Of a DNA stretch of 5,198 bases, positions 1 to 5,198 are shown piece by piece. The stretch is from Candidatus Latescibacterota bacterium (GTDB lineage Bacteria; JAAXHH01; JACQVL01). The translations under genes and the position numbers were made by a program. Position 1 is the stretch's first letter. Each line of letters opens with the position of its first letter. Below the pieces are notes generated by a model that had not been told where the DNA came from, did not search any database, and saw only the letters and a program-made list of their open reading frames with translations. The DNA lies in NCBI GenBank assembly GCA_016209865.1, contig JACQVL010000318.1, forward strand, positions 1-5,198, in the 5' to 3' direction.

Positions 1-1097
1 CCACCCCCTCCTCCACCGCCTCCTCCGCCCCCTTTACTCTTCCCACCCAATACCACGGCAGCCGCGCCGCCACCACCAGCGACGAGCAGGCCGACGACCA
101 GCCCCGCGACCCACTTTTTACTCCCACCGGGGGGTTTCGGCATTGGGGTCAGGCTCGCTGTAAGGTTCTGATTCTGGCTGAGCTGTACCGTCTGCTCCCA
201 GGCGATATACTTATTCCTCATCACACGGACCGTATAACTTCCCGGCGGCAGAGTCCGTGTCACCGTGCCCTGTCCGGCGCGTTGCCCATTGATATACACC
301 TCGGCGTCCGCCGGGGTTGGGACGATGCGGAGCTGATACCGCAGGACTGCTGGCTTAGGGATCGGGTTCAGGTTTGCAGCGAGTTTCTGATCCTGGTTAA
401 GCTGCACGGTCTGTTCCCAGGGGGTATAGTTGTCCTTGGTGACCCGGACCGTATGACTGCTCGGCGGCAAGGTGCGCGTCACCGTTCCCTGTCCGGCCGG
501 TTGGCCGTCGATCGAGACGGCCGCATCTGATGGGGTCGGGACGATTTGAAGCTGAAATTGACGAGGGGGAGGAAGAGCGGGCGGCGTTATGGTGGGGGCT
601 GGAGCGGGGGAGGGTGACGCGAGCGCCTGCGCCAGGTCATGCATCTTGTCCAGGAGTCCGTCGATCTCCCCACGGTGTGTAATGTTCCTGGAAAGCGACA
701 CCCGGCCGGTTTCCACGTCCACCAAGCGCGCGACCACGTTGTACGTCTGCCCGATCTTATCCACCGAACCAGCCACGATGGCCTGCGCGCCTAAGAGCTT
801 CCCGGCTTCGGCCACGCACTCATTGGTGACGCAGCCGGTCTGGGCCAACCCCTGCTCTTTCAGGAGTTCATCCACTCTGGCGCGTTCGATGATGATGAAA
901 CTGTTCGTCTGGACCAGTTCATTCTGCAGTTGATTGGTAAGCGCATTCGCTTCCGTCGGTGCAATCCCTGTGGGAGTCAGGGGTAAAATGGCCAATGTTT
1001 TCCTGGCTGCCGGCTGTTGAGCCCAGCCTGTATTCGTCTCAATGCCCACTGTGTAGCTGAGAAAACAGATCAGTACGATGATGTTGAGCGTCCTCAT
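1..1097 (-). CDS. CsgG-like domain protein with two PEGA repeats and C-terminal membrane segment (3' partial)
   Basis: The frame runs 365 codons from ATG 1097 to the left edge without a stop, so the C-terminus is missing. GGAG (1107-1104, 6-nt spacer) supports ATG 1097; an in-frame ATG at 1109 is a weaker alternative. Residues 1-26 are a signal peptide (MRTLNIIVLICFLSYTVG, cut near GWA-QQ). Residues 33-160 match the CsgG / curli-assembly-like alpha-beta domain: TLAILPL, SFIIIERARVDELLKEQ, TGCVTNECVAEAGKLLGAQ, IVAGSVDKIG, ARLVDVETGRV. A proline-rich linker (161-180) follows, then PEGA repeats at 183-243 and 256-316. Next come a hydrophobic segment (329-350) and ten consecutive glycines at the edge. 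PEGA modules are surface or envelope beta domains. A likely role is envelope-bound sensing or assembly; the exact function is unknown. Start coupled to the thioredoxin gene through ATGA suggests co-translation. Confidence 0.88.
   Translation of the reverse strand, partial: MRTLNIIVLICFLSYTVGIETNTGWAQQPAARKTLAILPLTPTGIAPTEANALTNQLQNELVQTNSFIIIERARVDELLKEQGLAQTGCVTNECVAEAGKLLGAQAIVAGSVDKIGQTYNVVARLVDVETGRVSLSRNITHRGEIDGLLDKMHDLAQALASPSPAPAPTITPPALPPPRQFQLQIVPTPSDAAVSIDGQPAGQGTVTRTLPPSSHTVRVTKDNYTPWEQTVQLNQDQKLAANLNPIPKPAVLRYQLRIVPTPADAEVYINGQRAGQGTVTRTLPPGSYTVRVMRNKYIAWEQTVQLSQNQNLTASLTPMPKPPGGSKKWVAGLVVGLLVAGGGGAAAVVLGGKSKGGGGGGGGGG
150..551 (-). repeat. Tandem pair of PEGA-encoding repeats
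   Basis: Two 183-bp units (551-369 and 332-150) are offset by 219 bp and separated by a short proline-containing spacer. They encode IVPTP-[SA]-DA-x-V-x-I-[DN]-GQ, an identical AGQGTVTRTLPP block, and W-EQTVQL. Both DNA and protein are visibly similar, indicating internal duplication. The glycine-proline-rich pattern is that of the PEGA domain family. Confidence 0.85.
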
Positions 1098-1756
1098 TCT
1101 GGTCTCCATGGCAGGGGGTCCTGGAGCAATGGACTAATCGTTGTGATCAGTTCCCGTTGGAATTCCCGTGGTGATCCGCTAAACCCTGTGTTGATGAGAC
1201 GAAGATACCCGTCACGATCGATCACAAATAAGTGAGGAAGCCGAGCCCGATCCCGGTCGTCAGCCACCTTGAAATTACGGGCCGCCGTCCCGAATTCATC
1301 CAGCAGGACAGGCAGGGTGTACCCCTGTTCCTTGACGAACTCGCGGACGACTTCCAGACGCCGCTTTGAGTCTGAAATCGGCTGATGTGTCACCAGATCC
1401 TGTTCACTCGGCGTATAGTTGACGAGAAACACTTTAAGGGGTTCATCCTTGAAAGTTTCATAGAATTGCTGCAGGATAGGAATCTCCGTTCTGCACGGCA
1501 CACACCAGGATGCAAAGAAGCTCAGGATGACCACGTATTTGGTCTTGTGGAATGGCCGCAACTCTTTTCCGCAGTAGTCCCTGAGGAAGACGGTTTCCCC
1601 ATTGAGGGCTTTGAGCACAAACGTCGGGGCCTGATCTCCGACCTTGAGTTGGTTCTGTCCGTTCTTCTGGTCGTTCTTCGCTTCCTGGCCAAACGCAGGC
1701 CCGACGGCTCCGCTGAGGAGACAGCCCATCACGAATAAGAGGATCGATTTGCGCAT
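1094..1756 (-). CDS. Exported TlpA/ResA-type thioredoxin-like protein
   Basis: This 220-residue protein starts at ATG 1756 behind GAGG (1766-1763, 6-nt spacer), 12 bp after the cytochrome lipoprotein gene. Residues 1-23 form a Sec signal peptide (MRKSILLFVMGCLLSGAVG, cut likely after AFG); VMGC at 9-12 resembles a lipobox but is followed by more hydrophobic sequence, so it is a weaker option. The mature part is an AhpC/TSA-Redoxin fold: VGDQAPTFVLKALNG, then FFASWCVPCRTEIP with active-site Cys85 and Cys88, a long insert after the catalytic helix (115-145), and the cis-proline loop ARLPHLFVID (Pro174). Such proteins reduce or isomerise disulfides outside the cytoplasm, for example in cytochrome c maturation. 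Here it could keep apocytochrome heme-site cysteines, or the Cys-Gly-Sec pair of the upstream product, reduced; this is inference. An extra Cys62 in DYCGKEL is unexplained. Its stop overlaps the next start as ATGA. Confidence 0.92.
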   Translation of the reverse strand: MRKSILLFVMGCLLSGAVGPAFGQEAKNDQKNGQNQLKVGDQAPTFVLKALNGETVFLRDYCGKELRPFHKTKYVVILSFFASWCVPCRTEIPILQQFYETFKDEPLKVFLVNYTPSEQDLVTHQPISDSKRRLEVVREFVKEQGYTLPVLLDEFGTAARNFKVADDRDRARLPHLFVIDRDGYLRLINTGFSGSPREFQRELITTISPLLQDPLPWRPE

Positions 1757-1768
1757 ACGAGACCTCGG

Positions 1769-3040
1769 TTAATGGACGACCTTCTTCACCATGTCCTCAT
1801 AATGAAAATCCGGGTTCTGGATGGGATCATGACAGGTCCGGCACTGCGCCGCCGTGACGCGCGGCACGGTCGTGACGCCGTTCGGCTGCCCGTGGTCTGC
1901 CGTCACCACATGGCAGGATAGACACTGGATGCCTTCGTGCTCCGCTTCGGCGAGCGTGACGTGACAACTTAAACACTCCGGGTTGTCCTGTTTGCCGGCC
2001 CGGACGAGCGTCTCGAACGCGTGCCGGTGCGGGGTTGTGTCCCATTGCGCCGCCTGAGGCCGATGGCATGGCGTGCAATCCGCCGCCTTCAAGCGAGGAC
2101 TACGAGACGACTCGACCTGCTTCTGCCGCTGCCGGGTTTTCAGAAGTCCGATGTACTCGGCCACAAGACGGTCCAGGTCGGGGTCGGGGGCAACTCTGTT
2201 ATCGAGCGGGATGAGCGTATTGGCGAACTCCCGGATGTGGCGTCCCTTGAGAGAGAGGGTCAACATTCCCAGATGTTCTCCGTTCTTCCCGGCCTGGACG
2301 ATCAGTGTCTGCCCCACCAGCACCGGGTCTTTGACAAACGTCTGGCTGTGGCCTCCAACGATGACATCGATGCCGGGGACAGTCTGAGCCAGCCCCTGAT
2401 CCGCCTCAAACCCGGCGTGTGAGAGGACGACCAGCAGATCGCACTGCTTGCGCAGCAGCCGGACCTGGCGGGTGAGGACGGTGTCCGCCGGGGCGATCGT
2501 CAGTCCAGCGCGAATGGCGGGGTCGAGAAATCGAAACGCCTTGTCGGGCGTGATGCCGAGGAGCCCGACTCTGAGGCGTCCGACGCGCACGAGCCGCCAG
2601 GGCAGGACTGCGGCGCCCCAATCGTCATGCGATGCGGCCGTCACCGTGGCCGAGACAAGCGGCAGGGACGCCGCCTGCGCCTGCTCGAGCAGGAAAGCGA
2701 CGCCATCGACACAGTCCTGGTCGCCAACATTGATCGCATCATAGGCCAGACGCCCCATCGCCTGGGTGACATACCGGTCCTTGACCGGGTTGGAGGAGAC
2801 GCCGAAGAGATCCCCGGCATCCACCACCAGGACAGCCTGGCGCTGGGTCCGGAGTTCCTTGAGCTTTGCGGCGCGCTTCGGCAGGCCGCCGAAGGGATTG
2901 CCGGGTCACCCGCAGGCTTCGAGCAGACCGTTCGTGTTATTCGTGTAGAGAAGGGTCACGGTCTGCGACCGGGTCCACGGTAAAAACCCCCCACAGCCGG
3001 TGAACAACACGACAAGAAAAATTGTGAAAAGGTAAAACAT
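1769..3040 (-). CDS. Candidate selenoprotein: lipoprotein with 5'-nucleotidase-like domain fused to a tetraheme cytochrome c554-like tail (UGA read through)
   Basis: This 423-residue product is read through one in-frame TGA (2908-2906, residue 45). Residues 1-16 are a lipoprotein signal with lipobox LFTGC; Cys16 would be acylated, and Gly at +2 fits outer-membrane retention. Residues about 28-290 match the metallophosphatase domain of 5'-nucleotidases: LLYTNNTNG, then CG-[UGA]-PGNPFGG, VDAGD (74-77), SHAG (His208) and GGHSQ (229-233). Two usual metal motifs are altered: TND-x-HG reads TNNTNG, and GNHE reads GDQD (106-109). There is no usual C-terminal nucleotidase domain. Instead four CxxCH heme sites occur at 322-326, 356-360, 373-377 and 400-404, in a cytochrome c554-like pattern (CTPCH...WDTTPHRHAFETL). 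The fused part cannot work alone as a cytochrome: starting at GTG 2827 it lacks a signal for heme attachment in the periplasm, and no ribosome site precedes that GTG. Function is likely extracytoplasmic electron transfer or redox chemistry; substrate unknown. The alternative is a pseudogene by Cys-to-stop mutation. Confidence 0.75.
2869..2903 (-). promoter_or_regulatory. SECIS-like stem-loop just downstream of the UGA
   Basis: On the mRNA strand CUUCGGC pairs with GCCGAAG (2894-2876), a perfect 7-bp stem closed by the 5-nt loop GGCCU. The loop begins with G and starts after 18 nt from the UGA. A lower helix CGGC/GCCG (2903-2900 with 2872-2869) can stack below an internal loop of AAUCC opposite CGC. 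Bacterial SECIS elements bind SelB and have a short upper stem with a G in the first loop positions, placed roughly 16-37 nt after the UGA. The local string GGCGGCCUGCC also resembles, from memory, the E. coli fdhF apex (GCAGGUCUGC). High GC makes chance hairpins likelier, which lowers certainty. Confidence 0.65.
2906..2908 (-). other. In-frame UGA, predicted selenocysteine codon
   Basis: The codon lies between GCC TGC GGG and CCC GGC AAT, giving A-C-G-[UGA]-P-G-N-P-F-G-G. The frame is open and has protein-like composition on both sides. The preceding Cys43 and the position of the UGA fit a CGC motif that I recall from related 5'-nucleotidase/cytochrome proteins, with Sec replacing the second Cys (TGC versus TGA). 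Selenocysteine usually replaces cysteine in homologues. The recall of the family motif needs an alignment to confirm. Confidence 0.72.
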
Positions 3041-3049: not shown

Positions 3050-3065
3050 GGGGTTCCCGAACCCC
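3050..3065 (-). promoter_or_regulatory. Intercistronic hairpin abutting a Shine-Dalgarno
   Basis: On the transcribed strand the bases GGGGTT-CGGG-AACCCC form a perfect 6-bp stem with a 4-nt loop in the 44-bp gap between the secreted-protein gene and the lipoprotein gene. It ends directly at the GGAGG ribosome binding site. No U-tract follows, so it is not an intrinsic terminator. It could protect or mark an mRNA processing point, or tune access to the ribosome binding site. The role is inference. Confidence 0.45.
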
Positions 3066-3084: not shown

Positions 3085-5198
3085 TCACTTGACCAATGCC
3101 ATCTTGCGACTCTGCCGGAAGCTCCCCGCCTGGATGGCGTACACATACACCCCGCTGGCCACCCGCTGCCCGCTACGATTCGTCCCGTCCCACACCACCT
3201 GATGATACCCGGCGGGCATGACCTGATCGACTAACACCTTCACTTCCTGTCCCAGGATATTGTACACCACCAGCCGGACCGGCACCGTCTGGGGCAGGGC
3301 AAAGCGGATCGTGGTCGTGGGGTTGAACGGGTTGGGCGCGTTCGGCTCTAAGGCGAAGGCTCGCGGGAGCAGGGTTGCTTTGACTCGCTCGATGTACGTT
3401 GAACTCCCCACGATGAGCTTGAAGTGTCGTGTACTCCCTGTCTCGCCCGTGGGGAATGTCACCATCGCGCGTTCCCGCAGGTTGAGTTCCCGGTAGTGAT
3501 CCAGATCGATCAACAGGGCCGTAAAGCCCGGCGGAACCTGATTCACATCCCGTACCGTGACCGTTGCGGTCGTGCGCGGGATGGCCGCATCGACCGTGAC
3601 ATCCCAGGCATATCCTTCGGCGTTCACCGGCCGGAAATCCCCGGCATACTGACCGGCCATGGGGGCCGGCCAATCTGGGTGCGGCACATAGAGCGCCACC
3701 GTGCCGGCCCCTAACGGCGGGGGTTCGGCAAAGTCCAGCGGATCCCACTGCTCCGCAGCCTGGGACGAGACGCCGAGATAATTGTCCACATCCTGCATCC
3801 CCCCCGCCTCTGCGACGACGCGGATCGTCCACCCGTCCGGCCCCGTCGGGCTCGTCAGCGGTGGGAGGGGCTTAGGGGTGGCGTTCGCATCGACCGGGGG
3901 AATCGTGATGGTGGTGGCGGTCCCGGTGCTCTTGACCCAGTACCCTTGCCACGGCTCCAGAAGAGCGGTAATCGTATACCCGCTCCCAGTCCACCGCCAC
4001 GCCCGGCTGTCCAGCGTCGGGTTATGGGCGCGGGTGCTGTCATACGGGACGGAGAAGGTATACGGGACGCCGACCTGCGTAAAGCCATTTTGGTTGATGG
4101 AGATCGACGGGGGCGAGCGGGTATCAGACGATTGTCCAGCGCCGAGCGTGATGGCACTGGGAGGCGTCCGTGAGATCACCCAGAACGCCTTGCCCGGCTC
4201 CATGCTCTCTGAGGTGGCTTCACTATACCCGGCGCCATTCCACCGGAAGATCCGCCCGATTTTGCTATCCCCGATGCCCAGTTGGCTGCCGAGCACGGTC
4301 TGCGCTGAGCGGTTGCCGTCGAGGGCGATCGGGATGGACAGCATCCGGAATTTGCTGTATTGCGTTTTCGTGAAGGTCGTGTCTGCCACATTCCCGGTAT
4401 CCGCCACGGCCAGACCGATCGTGCTGACGCTCACGGAGAGACTGGGGACGGCCACGCGCAGCGCACTGATCGCCGTCGAGTCGCTGGTGCTTGTTGCATC
4501 AGTCCCCTTGACATACACCTCCAGCCCATGATCGGTCACGTCCGCCGCCGGGATGGTCGCCGCGAAACTGTCCGCGCTGGCCGTCGTCGCCGCCATCCCC
4601 AGCCGCTGCCAGGTCGTCGTCCCGCCCCGCCGGTAGGCCAGGCTCACCGTCGTCGGCTCGCCATCGACCAGCGCCACCGCCACCCGCTTCGCGGTGCTGA
4701 TCGTGGCAGCCGTGATGCTGGACAGGCTACTGAAGGCCGCAGCCCGGGCCGCCGCCAGTCGATAGACCGAGAACCCGGTGAGGTGAATGTAGACGCGGCC
4801 GGTGGTCGTATTCACGCTATCGACCGTGACCCGTGTCCAGGTCGTGTCTGTGGCGGCGGCCTTCGTGTAGACCCGGAGATGGCGCGGATGGGTGACCCCG
4901 GCGGTACTCAGTTGGCTGGCCGTATACGCGAAGGCAAGCTTCGCTGCCGGGTTGAAGGTCGGGGAAGGCGTGGCGGTGAACTCATACGCCGGGCCGATGC
5001 CGATCAGGCGCTCTGAGCCACTCGGGATCGCCGCCCGGCTGTCGCTCTCCGCGAGCGTCGTCAGGGTGATGATCGTGTTCGACGTGAGCGCGCCGGACGG
5101 GATGGTCAGGGTCGTGCCGCTGGCATCGGTGACCGTCCCGCCGCCGGAGCCGACCACCTGGCCGGCGGTCGGGGCGGCGCTCACCTGCGTGCTTGGGC
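3085..5198 (-). CDS. Large secreted beta-rich protein with C-terminal Por/FlgD-like sorting domain (5' partial)
   Basis: The frame is open from the right edge to a TGA at 3087-3085. A GTG at 5184 is possible as a start, but the frame continues upstream of it (PSTQ before the valine) with no stop or signal peptide, so the true N-terminus is probably outside the window. Numbering from 5184 gives 699 residues. Residues about 12-140 resemble a ZU5-like domain (GGGTVTDASGTTLTIPSGAL). Residues 165-240 look like an Ig/Fn-type beta domain. Residues 276-420 hold two copies of a Trp/Tyr-rich unit (RWNGAGY...FWVIS and RWTGSGY...YWVKS). Residues 614-699 form a classic C-terminal sorting/FlgD-Ig-like domain: NAPNPFNPTTTIRFALP, VVYNILGQEV, WDGTNRSGQRVASGVYVY, ending KMALVK. 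In Bacteroidota this domain directs type IX secretion and surface attachment; similar tails occur in other phyla. The specific function is unknown. It leads the visible operon, 44 bp before the cytochrome lipoprotein gene. Confidence 0.9.
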   Translation of the reverse strand, partial: PSTQVSAAPTAGQVVGSGGGTVTDASGTTLTIPSGALTSNTIITLTTLAESDSRAAIPSGSERLIGIGPAYEFTATPSPTFNPAAKLAFAYTASQLSTAGVTHPRHLRVYTKAAATDTTWTRVTVDSVNTTTGRVYIHLTGFSVYRLAAARAAAFSSLSSITAATISTAKRVAVALVDGEPTTVSLAYRRGGTTTWQRLGMAATTASADSFAATIPAADVTDHGLEVYVKGTDATSTSDSTAISALRVAVPSLSVSVSTIGLAVADTGNVADTTFTKTQYSKFRMLSIPIALDGNRSAQTVLGSQLGIGDSKIGRIFRWNGAGYSEATSESMEPGKAFWVISRTPPSAITLGAGQSSDTRSPPSISINQNGFTQVGVPYTFSVPYDSTRAHNPTLDSRAWRWTGSGYTITALLEPWQGYWVKSTGTATTITIPPVDANATPKPLPPLTSPTGPDGWTIRVVAEAGGMQDVDNYLGVSSQAAEQWDPLDFAEPPPLGAGTVALYVPHPDWPAPMAGQYAGDFRPVNAEGYAWDVTVDAAIPRTTATVTVRDVNQVPPGFTALLIDLDHYRELNLRERAMVTFPTGETGSTRHFKLIVGSSTYIERVKATLLPRAFALEPNAPNPFNPTTTIRFALPQTVPVRLVVYNILGQEVKVLVDQVMPAGYHQVVWDGTNRSGQRVASGVYVYAIQAGSFRQSRKMALVK
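3088..3345 (-). other. C-terminal sorting / FlgD-Ig-like domain within the large secreted protein
   Basis: The last ~86 residues show the diagnostic order of the type-A-like sorting domain: PNPFNPTT, then a beta strand and YNILGQEV, then WDGTNRSG, then ASGVYVY and a lysine-ending tail. In known systems this tail is recognised by the outer-membrane type IX machinery. Whether this organism has that machinery cannot be seen here; the same fold is also used as a cell-surface Ig module in genomes lacking it. Confidence 0.85.
3928..4254 (-). repeat. Two diverged copies of a Trp/Tyr-rich protein repeat
   Basis: Copy 1 is encoded by 4254-4171 (RIFRWNGAGY...MEPGKAFWVIS) and copy 2 by 4005-3928 (RAWRWTGSGY...LEPWQGYWVKS). 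The shared pattern is R-x-x-R-W-x-G-x-G-Y, then E-P-x-x-x-[FY]-W-V-x-S. The units are about 83 residues apart. They read as repeated beta modules inside one secreted protein. The copies match at protein level only, so the duplication is old. Confidence 0.7.

Follow-up and report, generated by a model that had tools for sequence, protein, structure and literature searches.

We analysed a 5,198-nucleotide stretch of a Candidatus Latescibacterota contig, referred to here as the window (Table 1). Translation of window positions 1769-3040 with TGA read as U gave 423 residues ending at a TAA and containing a single internal TGA, codon 45 at 2908-2906, as the initial annotation had described. Encoded ahead of the TGA are the first β-strand of a 5'-nucleotidase-like domain and, N-terminal to it, a putative lipoprotein signal; the remainder of the domain and four CXXCH hemes come after the TGA. 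Read from the ATG at 3040, which has a GGAGG ribosome site immediately 5' of it, the N-terminus MFYLFTIFLVVLFTGC appears to carry a non-ideal lipobox (F-T-G-C) and an n-region without positive charge. No Shine-Dalgarno sequence precedes the internal GTG at 2827, and a start there would lie inside the conserved domain. Gene calling with table 11 breaks the selenoprotein frame into pieces with GTG starts. Just 5' of the ribosome site lies a perfect 16-base inverted repeat, GGGGTTCGGGAACCCC (3050-3065), with no T run after it, which is possibly regulatory.

Table 1. Features of the window discussed in the text.
Feature	Position	Strand	Evidence
Gene of the UshA-like tetraheme selenoprotein (423 aa, TGA45 as Sec)	1769-3040	-	translation, profile match, structure
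Putative signal peptide of a lipoprotein, MFYLFTIFLVVLFTGC and the residue after it	2990-3040	-	read from sequence
Cys43, invariant partner of Sec45	2912-2914	-	55-sequence alignment
TGA codon 45, Sec of C-G-U motif	2906-2908	-	homologue column
SECIS-like hairpin CTTCGGC-GGCCT-GCCGAAG	2876-2894	-	loop start 18 nt after UGA
Heme motif 1, CTPCH	2063-2077	-	residues 322-326; invariant in 55-sequence alignment
Heme motif 2, CLSCH	1961-1975	-	residues 356-360; invariant in 55-sequence alignment
Heme motif 3, CLSCH	1910-1924	-	residues 373-377; invariant in 55-sequence alignment
Heme motif 4, CRTCH	1829-1843	-	residues 400-404; invariant in 55-sequence alignment
Exported ResA/TlpA-like thioredoxin (SWCVPC), next gene	1094-1756	-	Pfam AhpC-TSA E=5.5e-23

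The gene upstream (3085-5196), whose start may fall off the contig, has at its end a FlgD-Ig-like domain (ALEPNAPNPFNPTTTIRF) of the kind found in type IX-like sorting signals. At the other end of the window, the gene at 3-1109 encodes a protein that combines a CsgG/LpoB-like domain, two PEGA repeats and a poly-Gly end; this gene overlaps the thioredoxin-like gene where the latter ends. The genes on either side of the selenoprotein gene both use TGA as their stop (3085 and 1094). TGA is thus an ordinary stop there, and a whole-genome recoding of TGA was rejected.

Homologues were collected by querying species genomes with a profile built from an alignment, which returned 80 loci in at least a dozen phyla; a single-sequence query over genome contigs had returned no homologous loci. 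One locus (L075) starts 3' of codon 45, leaving 79 that cover it, two of which (L069, CLC; L078, CGU) were assigned by eye. The results showed TGA in 41 of the 79 loci, Cys (TGC or TGT) in 38 and any other residue in none. All four same-order members, the window gene included, carry TGA, in the contexts CGU, CDU, CTU and CDU, each followed by PGNPFGGLP. In an alignment of 55 sequences, Cys43 and residue 45 (C/U) were as invariant as the heme ligands. Because the TGA stands at an invariant column that holds Cys or TGA at every covering locus, its position is beyond chance. A quick tree required at least seven changes between Sec and Cys, of which only two were forced by well-supported branches. 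Three UshA-like homologues with TGA (L020, L022, L039) lack any CXXCH motif, and the Sec motif is therefore independent of the heme tail.

The genome of the window encodes the complete selenocysteine system. On one contig, tRNA-Sec (68.3 bits) directly follows selB (337 bits), and selA (351 bits) and selD (390 bits) were also found, so that the search for selA, selB, selC and selD proposed in the initial annotation recovered all of them. The SelD gene of this genome (L052, G000:C19:21578-22510, minus strand) contains an in-frame TGA of its own, at HGAGUACK, and SelD is therefore likely a second selenoprotein of the genome.

A SECIS-like hairpin follows the TGA. The bSECIS model, as set out in PMC13188914, specifies a stem of 4-16 bp, a loop of 3-9 nt with a G in its first two positions, a spacing of 16-37 nt and a minimum free energy of at most -7.5 kcal/mol. 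The window hairpin has a loop of 5 nt (GGCCU) on a stem of 7 bp, stands 18 nt from the UGA and has an energy of -17.3 kcal/mol, within all of the limits published there. Three same-order relatives have the same hairpin; their loops differ, and two of them show a U-G in place of one U-A stem pair. Since the coding motif GGLxR alone favours hairpins, and plain MFE z-scores cannot separate the window hairpin from its GC-rich background, each gene was compared with synonymous recodings of itself, and the Cys homologues served as a second control. Against synonymous recoding, 17/43 TGA members and 0/37 Cys members had a SECIS-like hairpin at p<0.05, the median hairpin score was 19 versus 10, and total folding energy differed between the two groups (Mann-Whitney p=0.0012); all these p-values are indicative only, because related members are not independent. 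The TGA members thus have hairpins beyond what the coding sequence demands, and the Cys members have none such. Taken alone, the window hairpin was marginal against synonymous recoding (p 0.079), and the overall fold of the window gene was not unusual (z -1.33). An Rfam search of the window gave no match, a result that is weakly informative because bSECIS elements vary widely.

These observations bear on two readings in which codon 45 does not encode Sec. If the TGA were a true stop, the region would be a pseudogene or two genes, which would agree with the way any table 11 caller splits the frame. However, the downstream piece would then have neither an export signal nor a ribosome site, as the initial annotation had pointed out, distant genomes also carry a TGA at this column, where Cys is the sole alternative, and the genome holds a full Sec system; we regard a true stop as very improbable. 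A sequencing error that hides a TGC or TGG codon is no more credible: the window is a single contig of a draft MAG, but the TGA recurs at this codon in three other same-order genomes and in 41 of the 79 covering loci, and the window gene and those three relatives all have the hairpin after it. Recoding within one gene, preferred in the initial annotation over two separate genes, is upheld by the TGA/Cys-only column and the Sec genes. With the hairpin, these also support its proposal of a Cys-Gly-Sec selenoprotein with a putative export signal and four hemes. We conclude with high confidence that UGA45 is read as Sec in an unannotated member of the NF041198 family. SelB and tRNA-Sec would decode the codon, with the hairpin immediately 3' of it as the directing element.

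The protein matched the NCBIfam model NF041198, 'UshA-like (seleno)protein', with E 5.7e-78. Its score of 262.8 bits falls 12 short of the curated cut-off of 275, a shortfall that seems to stem from a short deletion in the segment joining heme 2 to heme 3, and the E-value leaves the homology beyond doubt; a same-order relative (L030) scored above the cut-off, at 289.1 bits. The match covered profile positions 3-268 and 345-519, that is, the nucleotidase-like and heme regions, so the heme fusion already lies within the curated family. C43-G44-U45 corresponds to the C-x-U/C motif that follows the first strand in NF041198. The initial annotation had considered the protein undescribed, which did not hold: UshA-like selenoproteins (COG0737, CxU) are tabulated in PMC2398784 (2008, 76 sequences), and again in PMC9312934 (2022) and PMC13188914 (2026). 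The passages of the three papers that list the family state no function for it. Our literature search found no description of PCGU and no characterised multiheme selenoprotein of the UshA-like kind. The window protein is therefore a new, divergent and unannotated member of the known UshA-like family, not a new kind of protein.

Comparison with related families defined its position further. It shares with NF041198 (UshA_like_PCGU) the domain order, the C-x-U position and the profile over the heme region, and many NF041198 members likewise end in four CXXCH hemes; it differs in being 35-42% identical to its same-order relatives and in the deletion between hemes 2 and 3. UshA-like selenoprotein family 2 (NF049981) has the same fold (E 1.1e-13), but the window protein scores 51 against a cut-off of 140 and has CxU, whereas the motif of that family is given as CxxU in PMC13188914. 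The C-terminal domain matches cytochrome c554 (PF13435; PDB 1bvb) with E 8.6e-8, although here it is a tail fused to another domain. ExtKL (NF040886), named in PMC13188914, is likewise a multiheme cytochrome that appears among the listed selenoproteins, but it is a separate family entry.

An AlphaFold2 model computed on the alignment had a mean pLDDT of 88 and a pTM of 0.86. Foldseek searches with this model pointed to a 5'-nucleotidase fold, with CD73, UshA and relatives as matches (best E 1.8e-24), and a profile search of structures matched nucleotidases, SoxB and cytochrome c554. The SoxB model TIGR04486 was matched with E 1.5e-28 and 99.4 bits, under its 550-bit threshold. The metallophosphatase fold is thus common to the window protein, SoxB and the UshA/CD73 5'-nucleotidases. 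The window protein differs from them in lacking several metal or catalytic residues and in having Cys-Gly-Sec and a tetraheme tail in place of the C-terminal nucleotidase domain. Active-site columns were placed by the TNDxH, GNHE and GGH motifs of aligned nucleotidases together with general background on these enzymes. Where 5'-nucleotidases have H, N and H, at positions 37, 107 and 108 of the window protein, it has N, D and Q. Across the 55-sequence alignment, the first-strand His occurs in 3/55 sequences, the Asn of the GNH motif in 0/55 and its catalytic His in 1/55, and D77, H208 and H231 are mostly kept. The dimetal/catalytic site is degenerate, since these His, Asn and His positions are lost family-wide, and some metal binding is possible given the residues that remain. 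Cys-x-Sec/Cys, an invariant feature, adjoins the degenerate site in sequence. For the label '5'-nucleotidase-like' given in the initial annotation, the fold is thus borne out by the model and profiles, and the function is doubtful because key catalytic positions are lost.

The next gene downstream encodes a thioredoxin-like protein that also matched a ResA subfamily model (E=4e-20, under the cut-off of that model). In a KSB1 genome (L068), a close homologue of this thioredoxin abuts the UshA-like gene, and at two further loci (L027:931-2397 and L045:883-2361) an AhpC-TSA/Redoxin thioredoxin-like domain and a CxC UshA-like domain without hemes form one open frame. When relatives were searched for an operon that joins the UshA-like and thioredoxin-like genes, only the KSB1 genome and these two fusions showed the association; the three closest heme-bearing Sec relatives have no thioredoxin gene alongside and BamA/TamB-like genes nearby. 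Gene fusion commonly signals that two proteins work together. On the strength of the fusions we propose thiol/selenol exchange with the UshA-like protein, and the ResA/TlpA-like thioredoxin is its probable redox partner.

The protein would be exported and probably lipid-anchored. Its degenerate 5'-nucleotidase/SoxB-type fold carries the Cys-Gly-Sec redox pair and precedes a cytochrome c554-like tetraheme domain. Cys43 and Sec45 may form a selenenylsulfide/selenol couple; the thioredoxin-like protein encoded next door would swap electrons with this couple, and these electrons could pass to or from the hemes. Heme-free relatives keep CxC or CxU, so the pair need not feed hemes. Another reading compatible with Sec is a metal-dependent hydrolase, 5'-nucleotidase or SoxB-like, in which Sec or Cys would be a metal or substrate ligand and the hemes an electron acceptor, for example on sulfur carriers as in SoxB. 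The SoxB model hit, the nucleotidase and SoxB structures matched by profile and the mostly kept D77, H208 and H231 favour a hydrolase, but the near-complete loss of the first-strand His, the GNH Asn and the catalytic His argues against it, and we consider this reading unlikely. The invariance of Cys43 and C/U45, the loss of nucleotidase positions 37, 107 and 108 and the adjacent or fused thioredoxin-like gene point instead to a redox role, and the protein is most likely an envelope thiol/selenol redox protein rather than a nucleotidase; the full redox mechanism is put forward tentatively. For UshA-like selenoproteins in general, it is possible, at somewhat less than even chances, that the two-metal site has decayed and that the adjacent Cys-x-Sec has become the active centre of an envelope oxidoreductase that is coupled to thioredoxin and wired to hemes.

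The window gene shows how table 11 calling splits such selenoprotein genes in draft genomes. Fusion to thioredoxin domains, missing catalytic residues and the frequent tetraheme tail make a testable redox hypothesis out of what had been, since 2008, an entry in selenoprotein lists for the UshA-like family.
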